A DNA stretch of 64,000 nt from Synechococcus sp. HK05 (GTDB lineage Bacteria > Cyanobacteriota > Cyanobacteriia > PCC-6307 > Cyanobiaceae). The stretch covers positions 558,001 through 622,000 of the forward strand of contig NZ_JAHRXJ010000011.1 of NCBI RefSeq assembly GCF_019104765.1, read 5' to 3'. The translations under genes and the position numbers were made by a program. This document shows, one piece after another, positions 43,215 through 49,096 of the stretch. Every line of letters starts with the position of its first letter. The stretch's first letter is position 1. Below the pieces are notes generated by a model that worked only from the letters and a program-made list of their open reading frames with translations, was not told the DNA's origin and searched no databases.

Positions 43215-44846
43215 TTATCCGGCCAGCTCTGGTGCCCGCAGGGGGGCCTGGCGGATCAAGCCAGCGCCTGCAGGCGCATTGAGGGCCTTCATCGCCCGTT
43301 CATCTTTGGCCACCAGCATTTCCATGGAAGCCTTGTAGCTGTCGGTCATCAGGCGGGGGTAGAGACCGATGCCAATGATTGGCACCAACAGGCAGCCAAT
43401 GATGTAGATCTCACGCGGCTCAGCATCCACCAGGTTGGTGTGGCCCACCAGCTCGGCTTTCTCCTGGCCGTAGAAGATCTCCCGCAGCATCGAGAGCAGG
43501 TAGATCGGAGTGAGGATCACTCCAATGGCGGCGAGGCCGTCGATCGCCACTCGGAAAGGCAGCGTGTAAGCGTCGTCGGTGGCAAAGCCCACGAACACCA
43601 TCAGCTCGCTCACGAAGCCGCTCATGCCCGGCAGTGCCAGCGAGGCCAGCGAGCACACGGTCCAGAGGGCGAACATCTTGCGCATCTTCTGGCCCACGCC
43701 GCCCATCTCATCGAGCTGCAGGGTGTGGGTGCGGTCGTAGGTGGCGCCCACCAGGAAGAAGAGTGAGGCGCCGATCAGGCCGTGGCTGATCATCTGCAGC
43801 ATCGCGCCGCTGGAGCCCAGGGCACTAAAGCTGCCGATGCCGATCAGCACGAAGCCCATGTGACTGATCGAGCTGTAGGCGATCTTGCGTTTGAGGTTGC
43901 GCTGGGCGAAGGAGGTGAGGGCGGCGTAAATGATGTTCACCACCCCCAGCACCACCAGCAGTGGCGCGAAGACGGCGTGGCCATCCGGAAGGATTTGGCA
44001 GTTGAAGCGCAGCAGGGCGTAGCCGCCCATCTTCAGCAGGATGCCCGCCAGCAGCATGTGCACCGGTGCGGTGGCTTCGCCGTGGGCATCCGGCAGCCAG
44101 GTGTGCAGCGGCACGATCGGCAGCTTCACGCCGAACGCGATCAACAGACCGGCGTAGGCGAGCAGCTGGAACTTCACGGAGAAGCCCTTGGCCATCAGAT
44201 CCGTGTAGTTGAAGCTGAAATCGCCGCCGTAGAAGGCCATCGCCAGGCCCGCCAGCAGGATGAACAGCGAGCTGCCGGCTGTGTAGAGGATGAATTTGGT
44301 GGCGGCGTATTGGCGCTTCTTGCCGCCCCAGATCGCCAGCAGCAGATACACCGGGATCAGCTCCAGCTCCCAGGCCAGGAAGAAGAGCAGCATGTCCTGC
44401 ACGGCGAACACGGCGATCTGGCCGCCATCCATGGCCAGCAGCAGGAAATAGAAGAGCTTCGGTTTGAAGCTCACCGGCCAGGCGGCGAGCACAGCCAAGG
44501 CCGTAATGAAGCTGGTGAGCAGGATCAGCGGCATCGAGATGCCGTCGGCCCCTACCGACCACTCCAGTCCGAGGTCGGGCACCCAGCTCACCTTCTCCAC
44601 CAGCTGCAGATCGGGGTTGCTGGGGTCGTAGCCGGTGAGATAGGCGCCAACGGTGATCAGAAAGGTGATCAGCGCAACACCCAGGGCAAACCAGCGCACC
44701 TGCTTGCCATCGCCGTTGTCGGGCACAAATGGGATGCAGAGTGCTGCGCCGATCGGGAACAGGATCGAGGCGCTCAGCCAGGGAAAAGCGGTGCTGCTGC
44801 CCTGGCCTGCGGTGGCGGCCAGGAGTGTGGCGACATCCAGATGCAC
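43215..44846 (-). CDS. ndhD: NAD(P)H-quinone oxidoreductase chain 4
   Basis: Antiporter-like proton-pumping subunit of NDH-1 with 14 or so helices. [22 protein letters not shown] carries the key Glu, [32 protein letters not shown] the Lys and the loop after it, and [18 protein letters not shown] the next conserved core. 543 residues. Start GTG 44846 is the most upstream that fits; 353 unusual non-coding bases separate it from ndhF. Probably the NdhD1/2 (respiratory/cyclic) type because ndhF1 precedes it. Confidence 0.95.
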
Positions 44847-44931
44847 AGACGGGGCAACGGCTCTGGGCGGAGTGTAGAAATCACTTCCGCTGCTGCACCG
44901 GTGGAGTGGCGGATGTCACACAGAGCGTTGT

Positions 44932-44998
44932 GCCTGGGGTGTGTTCGCGGGGCGCTCACCGCTGGGGGCGGACATCGCCCCGCGAACACACCCCAGGC
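44932..44998. repeat. 23-bp perfect inverted repeat, 21-base loop
   Basis: Left arm 44932-44954 and right arm 44976-44998 are exact reverse complements; the loop is 44955-44975. It is about 85 bases upstream of the ndhD start in the reading direction of ndhF-ndhD. No T-run follows on either strand, so it is not an ordinary terminator. Confidence 0.9.
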
Positions 44999-45065
44999 GG
45001 CGCGGGTGGGGGCTGTCGGCACGACGGCCTCGTGGGTGCTGCGGCGAGGGCGCAGAACAAAAGCG

Positions 45066-45086
45066 CTTTCGCCGGCTACCGCTCGC
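45066..45086. repeat. Segment complementary to 45162-45182 (one mismatch)
   Basis: The 21 bases 45066-45086 pair with 45162-45182 at 20 of 21 positions (A45078 opposite C45170). This would interleave with the arms of the 45118-45199 hairpin, so the two pairings compete or form a pseudoknot. A ten-base palindrome AAAGCGCTTT lies at its edge (45060-45069). Confidence 0.8.
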
Positions 45087-45117
45087 TTGGCGCGCTACTG
45101 CCCCACCACCCCTGCGG

Positions 45118-45199
45118 TGGTCTGAGGCGTTGCCCTGCAGCCGGCATCCGCCGCGCGCAGCGCGAGCGGCAGCCGGCGAAAGGGCAACGCCTCAGACCA
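45118..45199 (-). repeat. 82-base hairpin abutting the ndhF stop codon
   Basis: Arms 45118-45136 and 45181-45199 pair over 19 perfect bases; inside, GCCGGC (45140-45145 with 45172-45177) and further GC-rich pairs continue the stem to a three-base loop. It begins the base after the ndhF TGA (45202-45200). Possible 3' stabiliser, attenuator or mobile palindrome. No poly-T follows. Confidence 0.85.
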
Positions 45200-47212
45200 T
45201 CACCCGAGTGCTCCGAACAGCACCACCAGCGCGATCACGCCGCCGAACACGATCAGGGCATAGAACTGAGCGCGGCCGGTTTCGAAGTATTTGAGGCCTT
45301 CGCCGCTGCCGAGGGTCACGAGGCCGGTGAGGTTCACCACGCCGTCGACCACTTTGGAATCCACCTCCAGCACCGAGCGGGCCAGCTTGCGGCTGCCTTG
45401 CACGAACAGCTTGTCGTTGATGGCATCGAGGTACCACTTGTTCGCCAGGAAGGCGTTGATCGCGGGGAAACGACCAGCCACGGCGGTGCCCAGATCGATC
45501 TTGCGCAAGGCGTAGGCCAGCACAGCCACCGTGATGCCCACCACCGAGATCGCCACGGAGGCGCCGGCCAGAGGCAGGAACTCACCCCAGCTGAAGTGCT
45601 CGGCCACTTCGGCGGCCTCGTGGGGATCCAGGAGCATGCCGAAACGGCTGTTCCAGGGCACGCCCAGCAGGCCCACCAGCACCGAAGGCACCGCCAACAC
45701 GGCTAGGGGCATCGCCATCTGCCAGCCCGATTCGTGCGGGTGCTCCGCATGGGCATGGCCGTGGTCGTCGGCGTGTTCGTCGGAGCTCTTGCCGGCGGCG
45801 GCCATTAGCTGCGCTTGCATCGCCTTGTCGTTGCCGCGGAAGCTGCCCTCGAAGGTGAGGAAATACAGCCGGAACATGTAGAAGGCGGTCATGCCGGCGG
45901 TGATGAAGCCGGCGGCCCAGAGCACCGGGAAGCTGCCGAAGGCCTGGCCGAGGATTTCGTCCTTGCTCCAGAAGCCGGCCAGGGGCGGGATGCCGCTGAT
46001 GGCCAGGCAGCCGATGAAGAAGGTGCTGCTGGTGATCGGCATGTGCTTGCGCAGGCCGCCCATCAGGCGCATGTCTTGCGCGAGCACGGGCTCGTGGCCC
46101 ACCACCTCTTCCATGGCGTGGATCACGGAACCGGAGCCCAGGAAGAGCATCGCCTTGAAGAAGGCGTGGGTCACCAGGTGGAACATGCCGGCCACCGGGG
46201 CACCGCAGCCCATGGCCAGCATCATGTAGCCGAGCTGGCTCACGGTGCTGTAGGCCAGACCCTTCTTGAGATCCATCTGGGTGAGGGCGATCGAGGCCCC
46301 CAGGAACAGCGTGATCGTGCCGATCACGGCCACCACCACCTGCACCTCCGGGAAGGGCACGTACACCGGTTGCAGGCGCGCCACCAGGAACACCCCGGCC
46401 GCCACCATCGTGGCGGCGTGGATCAGGGCCGAGATGGGCGTGGGGCCCTCCATGGCGTCGGGCAGCCACACGTGCAGCGGGAACTGGGCCGATTTCGCCA
46501 TCGGGCCCATGAACACCAGCAGGCAGAGCAGCACGGCGATGCCGTTGGGCACGCTGCCGTTGGCGATGGCGGCTTGCAGGCCACTGCCCACCTGTTCAAA
46601 GCCGAAGCTGCCGGTGGCCCAGAACAGGCCGAGGATGCCGAGCAGCAGGCCGAAGTCGCCCACGCGGTTCACCACAAAGGCTTTCTGGGCGGCATTGGCG
46701 GCGCCATCGCGGTCGTACCAGAAGCCCACCAGCAGGTAGGAGCACATCCCCACTAGCTCCCAGAACACATAGATCTGCAGGAGGTTGGGGCTGATCACCA
46801 GGCCCAGCATCGAGCTGCTGAACAGGGCCAGGTAGGTGAAAAAGCGCACATAGCCCTTGTCGTGGGCCATGTAGCCATCGGAATACACCATCACCAGCAC
46901 GGCGATGGTGGTGACCAGGGCAAGCATCACGGCGCCCAGGGCATCCACCCGGAAGCCCATCTCCAGGGTGAAGGCGCCAGCGCTGGCCCAGTTGAACAGC
47001 ACTTCGGTGGGGCCGGCCCCCGCCAGCTGCTGGGCGAGCACGGCGTAGCTGAGCACCGCGGCGGCCCCCACGCTGGTGATCAGCAGCAACGCCACCGGTT
47101 TGCGCAACCGATTCACCGTGCGGTTGAAGCTGATCAGCCCAAGACCCACCAACGCTGCCCCGATCAGGGGCAACACCGGAATCAGCCAGGCGAGTTCGGC
47201 AGGCGAGGGCAT
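45200..47212 (-). CDS. ndhF: NAD(P)H-quinone oxidoreductase subunit 5 (NdhF1 type)
   Basis: Distal antiporter-like proton-pumping subunit of NDH-1, 670 residues, with the long lateral-helix C-terminus. QIYVFWELVGMCSYLLVGFWYDR, KSAQFPLHVWLPDAMEGPTPISALIHAATMVAAG and KGLAYSTVSQLGYMMLAMG are the conserved core; the His-rich EHADDHGHAHAEHPHE loop is strain-specific. The ATG at 47212 precedes the family start. Followed by ndhD on the same strand after a structured spacer. Confidence 0.95.
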   Translation of the reverse strand: MPSPAELAWLIPVLPLIGAALVGLGLISFNRTVNRLRKPVALLLITSVGAAAVLSYAVLAQQLAGAGPTEVLFNWASAGAFTLEMGFRVDALGAVMLALVTTIAVLVMVYSDGYMAHDKGYVRFFTYLALFSSSMLGLVISPNLLQIYVFWELVGMCSYLLVGFWYDRDGAANAAQKAFVVNRVGDFGLLLGILGLFWATGSFGFEQVGSGLQAAIANGSVPNGIAVLLCLLVFMGPMAKSAQFPLHVWLPDAMEGPTPISALIHAATMVAAGVFLVARLQPVYVPFPEVQVVVAVIGTITLFLGASIALTQMDLKKGLAYSTVSQLGYMMLAMGCGAPVAGMFHLVTHAFFKAMLFLGSGSVIHAMEEVVGHEPVLAQDMRLMGGLRKHMPITSSTFFIGCLAISGIPPLAGFWSKDEILGQAFGSFPVLWAAGFITAGMTAFYMFRLYFLTFEGSFRGNDKAMQAQLMAAAGKSSDEHADDHGHAHAEHPHESGWQMAMPLAVLAVPSVLVGLLGVPWNSRFGMLLDPHEAAEVAEHFSWGEFLPLAGASVAISVVGITVAVLAYALRKIDLGTAVAGRFPAINAFLANKWYLDAINDKLFVQGSRKLARSVLEVDSKVVDGVVNLTGLVTLGSGEGLKYFETGRAQFYALIVFGGVIALVVLFGALG

Positions 47213-47258
47213 CCGGCGCTGGAGCAATCAGGGCGAGTGTAGGCAGCGCGAGAGGCGC

Positions 47259-48100: not shown

Positions 48101-49096
48101 ATGGCTGATCTGCCCTTCACCCTTGATCAGCTGCGCATCCTGCGGGCGATCGCCAGCGAGGGCAGCTTCAAGAAGGCGGCCGACAGCCTTTATGTGACAC
48201 AGCCGGCGGTGAGCCTGCAGATCCAGAATCTGGAAAAGCAGCTGAATGTGTCGCTGTTTGACCGGGGTGGGCGCAAGGCGCAGCTCACGGAGGCCGGCCA
48301 CCTGCTGCTCAGCTACTGCGACCGGATCCTGAGCCAGTGCCAGGAGGCCTGCCGCGCCCTCGACGATCTCCACAACCTCAAGGGCGGTTCACTGATCGTG
48401 GGCGCCAGCCAGACCACCGGCACCTATCTGATGCCGCGGATGATCGGGCTGTTCCGCCAGAAGTATCCAGAGGTGGCGGTGCAGCTGCAGGTGCACAGCA
48501 CCCGCCGCACCGGCTGGAGCGTGGCCAACGGCCAGATCGACCTGGCGATCATCGGTGGGGAGCTCCCCAGCGAATTGAACGAGCTCCTCCAGGTGGTGCC
48601 CTATGCCAGTGATGAGTTGGCGCTGGTGCTGCCCACCAAGCACCCCCTGGCCCGCCTGGCGGAGCTCAGCAAAGACGACCTCTACCGCCTGGGCTTCGTC
48701 TGCCTGGATGCCCAATCCACCACCCGCAAGATGGTGGACCAACTGTTGGCGCGCTCCGGCCTCGATGTGTCGCGCCTGAAAATCGAGATGGAGCTCAATT
48801 CCTTTGAGGCCATCAAAAATGCTGTGCAGAGCGGCCTGGGTGCGGCGTTCCTGCCGGTGGTGTCGATCGAGCGGGAACTGGCCGCAGGCAGCCTGCATCG
48901 CCCGGCCCTGGCGGATCTCTCCGTGCGGCGGCAGCTGAAGTTGATCAGCCACCCCTCGCGCTACTGCTCGAGGGCTGCTGATGCCTTCCGCAAAGAGGTG
49001 CTTCCGGTGTTCGCCAGCCCCGATAGCCCCTTGCGCCGGCCCCTGCTGCAGAACCAGCCGGCCGGCTCAGACCCCGGCGGTGACGATCAGAACTGA
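48101..49096 (+). CDS. rbcR: LysR-type regulator RbcR
   Basis: LysR family regulator of carbon-fixation genes (RbcR group). Helix-turn-helix in [43 protein letters not shown] (about 6-48, given in two pieces), then an effector-binding domain with [19 protein letters not shown] and [18 protein letters not shown]. 331 residues. Divergent from the Z-ISO/NnrU gene, as LysR genes often are from their targets. The 3' end overlaps the DUF3172 gene by ten bases. Confidence 0.9.

Follow-up and report, generated by a model that had tools for sequence, protein, structure and literature searches.

Among the described hairpins closest to those reported here, RNase III processing hairpins are double-stranded over about two turns of the helix and lie within intergenic transcripts, and RNase III cuts double-stranded stems of 19-26 pairs. 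The stems of intrinsic (Rho-independent) terminators are usually shorter than this. REP elements are described as repeats tagged with GTAG/CGTC (PMC3733652), and template switching has been described as a way in which perfect stems arise (PMC8794818). Cyanobacteria have no Rho, and one account treats the way in which most of their transcripts end as an open question, reporting for S. elongatus that the majority of transcript ends are not canonical terminators (PMC13289151).

Here, we describe long, nearly perfect hairpins in the gap between ndhF and ndhD, genes of photosynthetic complex I, in some freshwater picocyanobacteria. They are probably a barrier separating the transcription of the two genes. 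A literature search covering titles and abstract openings found no description of ndhF-ndhD hairpins.

Two hairpins in the ndhF-ndhD gap

The window is the whole 64 kb stretch of DNA that was analysed. The features around the gap, with the evidence for each in brackets, are:

43215..44846, minus strand: ndhD, NAD(P)H-quinone oxidoreductase subunit 4, 543 aa (NCBIfam)
44876..44889 (approximate position), minus strand: conserved ATTTCTACACTCCG with a -10-like TACACT (conservation)
44912..44925, minus strand: CTCTGTGTGACATC, conserved block upstream of ndhD (conservation)
44932..44998, minus strand: hairpin 2 (hp2), 67-nt palindrome near the ndhD promoter-like block (sequence, relatives, covariation)
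44999..45117, minus strand: spacer between hp1 and hp2, poorly conserved (28-61% identity between six relatives)
45063..45095, plus strand: inverted partial copy of part of hp1, in the spacer (85% over 33 nt)
45118..45199, minus strand: hairpin 1 (hp1), 82-nt near-perfect palindrome (sequence, fold, relatives, covariation)
45200..47227, minus strand: ndhF, NAD(P)H-quinone oxidoreductase subunit 5, 675 aa (NCBIfam)

The gene names used in a preliminary description of this DNA agree with NCBIfam, whose subunit 5 and subunit 4 models both score above their cut-offs. The palindrome that it had noticed at 45118-45199 is confirmed, with 19 perfect outer pairs followed inwards by a 3x3 internal loop, a GCCGGC/GCCGGC stem, a 2x2 internal loop, an inner stem, and a 3-base loop. 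It adjoins the ndhF stop codon (45202-45200, minus strand) with 0 bases between them, where one base had been counted before. The folding energy of the 111 nt at 45105-45215 (plus strand) is -80.4 kcal/mol; 200 shuffled versions have a mean of -46.5 (z -8.6), and none of them reaches the native value. Both strands of 44700-45400 contain 0 terminator-like sites and no U-tract was found there, in agreement with the earlier remarks that no T-run follows hp1 and that it is no textbook terminator. Rfam 15, searched over 44500-45700, gave nothing above gathering score; its eight matches with E up to 1 are to microRNA and sRNA models, all far below gathering. The inverted partial copy in the spacer is missing from all five relatives compared (G022, G024, G014, G008, and G005), and it looks like a recent inverted duplication.

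The same gap holds hp2, which the preliminary description overlooked. It has 23 perfect outer pairs, a small internal loop, a CCGC/GCGG inner stem, and a 5-base loop, and it ends a few bases upstream of the conserved ndhD promoter-like block. To judge by conservation, CTCTGTGTGACATC is possibly an activator site, and ATTTCTACACTCCG, with its TACACT, a putative ndhD promoter. The scan of 44700-45400 for sigma-70 promoters found 0, so it is conservation that points to a promoter here. CTCTGTGTGACATC has one exact match in its own genome, the ndhD copy itself. A second use of the block elsewhere in that genome was considered and rejected: the other 7 matches carry 2 mismatches, compared with 3 matches for the control.

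Near ndhF lies a gene for a LysR-type regulator (window 48101-49096), matched by 54 NCBIfam LysR-type models, with none above its cut-off among the 25 matches listed. RbcR is one possible identity, and such a regulator might bind the ndhD block.

Copy number in the genome and the genus

The preliminary description had suggested a mobile palindromic element inserted at a gene end and, with it, a whole-genome search for copies. A DNA search of the own genome with hp1 returned hp1, its reverse strand, and the 33-nt inverted partial copy in the spacer, and the covariance models of hp1 (R1) and hp2 (R2), with the best 150 candidates scored per genome, matched one place each; dispersed copies were not found. 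In the same way, R1 matched 8 and R2 14 of the 25 genus genomes. These matches lie at the ndhF-ndhD gap with three exceptions, a weak one of R1 on contig 55 of G017 (E 8e-4) and those of R2 on contig 4 of G006 and contig 3 of G017. The order-wide search of 250 genomes with R2, which used stricter filters, scored 20 candidates per genome, and relied on a model that is poor for other stem types, found 7 genomes with a match, every one in the window's genus. Of 9 genomes having a hairpin, 5 contain the Cyanobium-type tip pattern, each a single time; the pattern is strict and missed the other 4. Y1 transposase (PF01797) was not found in the own genome and is present in 1 of the 25 genus genomes (control matched in 5 of 14); this genome, G013, has neither hairpin. 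Because these searches gave a single place for each hairpin and no Y1 transposase in the own genome, a mobile REP-type repeat is unlikely, and we rejected it as an explanation.

Long hp2-like hairpins stand at the end of glmS in G006 and G017 (L064, about 1500-1571; L072, about 1500-1570). At both loci they adjoin a convergent mannose-1-phosphate guanylyltransferase gene; NCBIfam named glmS in L064 and the neighbour gene in L064 and L072. A dispersed palindrome, GGATATCC-NN-GGATATCC (e.g., G000:C11:6384-6425 and 205636-205675; L085, L095), is found at 6 places in the own genome and at 3-15 in 8 of the 25 genus genomes, with none in 17 and 0 for the control pattern. Variable, perfectly complementary arms flank it in the four copies inspected, and 6 of its 8 carriers are the close relatives having both ndh hairpins.

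Conservation among relatives

The 25 genus genomes provided 24 ndhF ends (L021-L044; G021 gave only a distant paralogue), a set that partly overlaps the 80 named loci analysed below. hp2 is present in 13 of these 24 loci, 12 identified by a stem of at least 12 and G010 by the model. An R1-type hp1 is present in 7, G015 has a different hairpin at the stop, and L035 and L043, read by eye, have no long hairpin. The junction carries two hairpins, one, or none in close relatives. Pairwise identity between the six genomes with both hairpins is 72-98% for hp1, 77-99% for hp2, and 92-100% for the ndhD promoter-like block, against 28-61% for the spacer (23-43% when shuffled). Relative to the last 372 nt of ndhF, the hp1 of the window is more conserved in comparisons with G022 (96% vs 92.7%) and G024 (98% vs 91.7%), and less conserved in those with G014 (83% vs 91.4%), G008 (88% vs 92.2%), and G005 (76% vs 89.5%). 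The preliminary description had set against its proposal the combination of a single copy, no conservation, and uniform RNA coverage; the locus departs from this combination because the hairpin is conserved.

The hairpin beside ndhD across 80 loci

In 45 of the 80 named loci, a TTTCTACACTCC-like block comes after a block CTGTGTG[ACT]C, 43 nt further on in 39 of them. Among these 45, 22 have a hairpin whose end lies 5-15 nt upstream of this ndhD block (L117, with hp2 by the model and no exact block, was excluded). This hairpin measures 59-77 nt in 21 loci and 30 nt in L158, and its stems have unrelated sequences in different clades, with position and usual length kept. In L163 and L179, the hairpin still adjoins ndhD although more than 2 kb separate it from ndhF; hence, hp2 belongs with the putative ndhD promoter rather than with the ndhF end.

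The hairpin is dispensable, since 23 of the 45 loci with the ndhD block have none. Among these, the distance between the ndhF stop and the block is 11-82 nt in 18, which is too little room for a hairpin, and 134-205 nt in three; in the remaining two, ndhF is far off. In the 20 hairpin loci adjoining ndhF, this distance is 108-521 nt. On an ndhF tree of 78 loci (L163 and L179 left out), inferred by a quick method and with moderate support, the presence or absence of the hairpin takes 12 changes, or 11 among block-bearing loci. The hairpin therefore comes or goes often.

We then counted long stems, defined by at least 16 pairs and a loop of up to 60. In the 64 kb window, hp1 and hp2 are the sole matches; there are 5 matches in 758 kb of the own genome (the longest of 51 nt) and 5 in 400 kb of the relative G005 (none above 51 nt). 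Across the 80 loci, 21 long stems fall in 13,923 bases of ndhF-ndhD gap, compared with 10 in 467,718 other bases. Six of these 10 begin in the last ndhF codons, two are the hairpins of L163 and L179 by ndhD, and 2 in the flanks are unrelated to the ndhF stop or the ndhD block.

A stem of 17 bp at G000:C11:381435-381477 contains TTAGCACTC-N9-GAGTGCTAA, which we take to resemble the CIRCE heat-shock operator.

Matched changes in the arms

In eight close hp2 rows, 13 of the 30 pairs have changed on both sides, and their 237 cells include 27 double-changed, 0 G-U, and 4 unpaired. By every measure, and for the row sets of both hp1 and hp2, 0 of 500 shuffles reach the observed pairing. Only 8 of the 27 double changes in hp2 could have gone through a single G-U step. 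G-U occupies 3 or 4 cells in a 13-row hp2 set and 20 of the 716 pairs in whole-region folds of 22 loci. The outer stems of 26 hp2 and 12 hp1 rows, about 875 pairs, include 3 G-U, 9 A-C, and 3 other mismatches; under selection for a paired sense RNA, G-U would be preferred to A-C, although the observed counts are small. The stem pairs vary among the eight close hp2 rows, and the GT/TG internal loop is invariant and unpaired in all 8.

A hairpin at the stop codon occurs in 9 of 78 loci, or 10 with L121, where the long-stem rule found one that the stop-codon hairpin finder had missed (L163 and L179 are outside this count). Its 5' arm includes the last ndhF codons and the stop in L120, L125, L130, L136, and L145, and also in L121; the opposite arm thus repeats coding sequence in inverted orientation. 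The hp1 of the window starts after the ndhF stop, and its arm is therefore not a copy of the ndhF end. Matched changes without G-U, together with arms that invert the end of ndhF, fit copying by template switching.

Discussion

The reading that we prefer, tentatively and at somewhat less than an even chance, is that the two hairpins are a lineage-specific insulator between ndhF and ndhD, made of U-less RNA hairpins whose palindromes are produced and repaired at the DNA level. Here, hp1 would cap the ndhF message at the stop codon, and hp2 would be placed just upstream of the ndhD promoter-like block. In read-through RNA from ndhF, the hairpins would form stems of 19-26 bp that protect the ndhF 3' end and hinder or cut the read-through RNA, and ndhD expression would be left to its own putative promoter. 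Template switching between the arms in the DNA may create the palindromes and keep them perfect, with selection acting on the hairpin and its tip. We observed the place and structure of the hairpins, their conservation above that of the spacer, the matched changes in their arms, and the tie of hp2 to ndhD, and from these we infer the ndhD promoter, transcription across both hairpins, and insulation.

Several observations argue for an insulator. Both hairpins lie between genes on the same strand and are better conserved than the spacer that separates them, and their arms pair beyond all shuffles. The hairpin upstream of the ndhD block keeps its place and length across unrelated stems, and persists by ndhD in L163 and L179 despite the distance to ndhF. 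Long stems are concentrated in the gap (and 8 of the 10 outside it lie across the ndhF stop or next to the ndhD block), and the internal loop of hp2 stays invariant and unpaired. The absence of Rho and the many cyanobacterial 3' ends described as unexplained by canonical terminators (PMC13289151) are consistent with it. Against an insulator stand the 23 of 45 ndhD-block loci that have no hairpin, the absence of a U-tract, the outer stems with fewer G-U than A-C where sense-RNA pairing should tolerate G-U, and the account that U-less ends in S. elongatus are mostly without strong structure (46% structured; PMC13289151). The preliminary description had proposed a 3' stabiliser or processing element uncoupling ndhF from ndhD. 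Position, conservation above that of the spacer, and matched changes fit the boundary role in this proposal.

Cutting by RNase III would account for the stems differently. If ndhF and ndhD were co-transcribed, cleavage of the stems would yield separate messages of different stability, a reading that we find rather unlikely. It draws on the 19-26 perfect outer pairs in the window and close relatives, a continuous double strand of about 20 bp or more (19 pairs in hp1, 23 in hp2, 26 in several relatives), and on RNase III genes, described in all sequenced cyanobacteria and usually numbering 1-3 per genome (PMC10989914); yet processing does not need hp2 beside the ndhD block rather than in mid-gap, nor does it predict the scarcity of G-U. 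Arm-matched changes without G-U steps would be expected if template switching, the described maker of perfect stems (PMC8794818), made and repaired functionless palindromes in a spare stretch between conserved boundaries. The inverse copies of the ndhF end in 5 of 78 loci, plus L121, the recent inverted partial copy in the window's own spacer, and a patchy presence, for which the ndhF tree requires 11-12 changes or more, agree with such a neutral by-product. We nevertheless judge it unlikely: the neighbouring spacer diverges and the hairpins stay, pure arm copying would even out the conserved unpaired tip, and few long stems occur in other places, with 5 in 758 kb of the own genome and 2 unrelated ones in the flanks of the 80 loci.

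The palindrome could instead act as DNA. Lying upstream of the putative ndhD promoter, it would form a cruciform when the DNA is negatively supercoiled, or bind structure-specific proteins, and so tune or topologically insulate ndhD. Linkage to ndhD even without an adjacent ndhF, the narrow fixed distance of 5-15 nt, the perfect Watson-Crick symmetry of the eight close hp2 rows, and sense-strand A-C at least as frequent as G-U all suit this explanation. It is quite unlikely, however, as it leaves hp1 at the ndhF stop unexplained, the hairpin is missing from about half of the loci that have this promoter-like block, and the 5-15 nt gaps show by eye no obvious helical phase. Its most specific form, in which a promoter-linked, sequence-free palindrome of ~70 bp, with symmetry kept by arm-to-arm copying, serves as a cruciform insulator or supercoiling sensor for ndhD, is less probable still; if true, it would be a cyanobacterial regulatory element conserved in symmetry rather than in sequence. 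Finally, insertion of a mobile palindromic repeat (REP/MITE-like) at a gene end would fit the patchy distribution on the ndhF tree and the hp2-like hairpins at the glmS end of two relatives. It is very improbable in view of the single place at which each hairpin was found in the own genome, the absence there of Y1 transposase, whose sole carrier among 25 genomes has neither hairpin, and a tip pattern that never occurs more than once in the nine genomes.

This single-locus pair of hairpins, whose place and length persist as its letters turn over, offers a direct way to study insulation and how 3' ends form without a U-tract. The junctions with two, one, or no hairpins in close relatives are a natural series for template switching that keeps a regulatory palindrome.

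Comparison with known systems

Intrinsic terminators likewise have a strong GC-rich hairpin at the 3' end of a gene. They differ in the U-tract that follows it, which hp1 and hp2 lack on either strand, and the stems of hp1 and hp2, with 19-26 pairs, are longer. REP elements, as described in PMC3733652, are also GC-rich palindromes that lie at the ends of genes, contain a small internal loop, and may stabilise 3' ends. Unlike them, the ndh hairpins are not dispersed, occupy one fixed locus, measure 59-83 nt as a rule, and have no Y1 transposase in their own genome. Because we looked for a defining feature of each kind and did not find it, we class the hairpins neither as terminators nor as REPs. 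RNase III processing hairpins resemble them in offering about two turns of double helix within an intergenic transcript; unlike these, hp2 is tied to a downstream promoter-like block, and cleavage is here hypothetical. The template-switch hairpins described in PMC8794818 also show perfect stems, simultaneous paired changes, and an arm copying neighbouring sequence, but that account concerns rRNA and other RNA genes, unlike the ndhF-ndhD gap, and 61.0% of the instantaneous changes in its rRNA set are compatible with one G-U step, against the 8 of 27 in hp2. We would file the ndh hairpins with the U-less intergenic hairpins.
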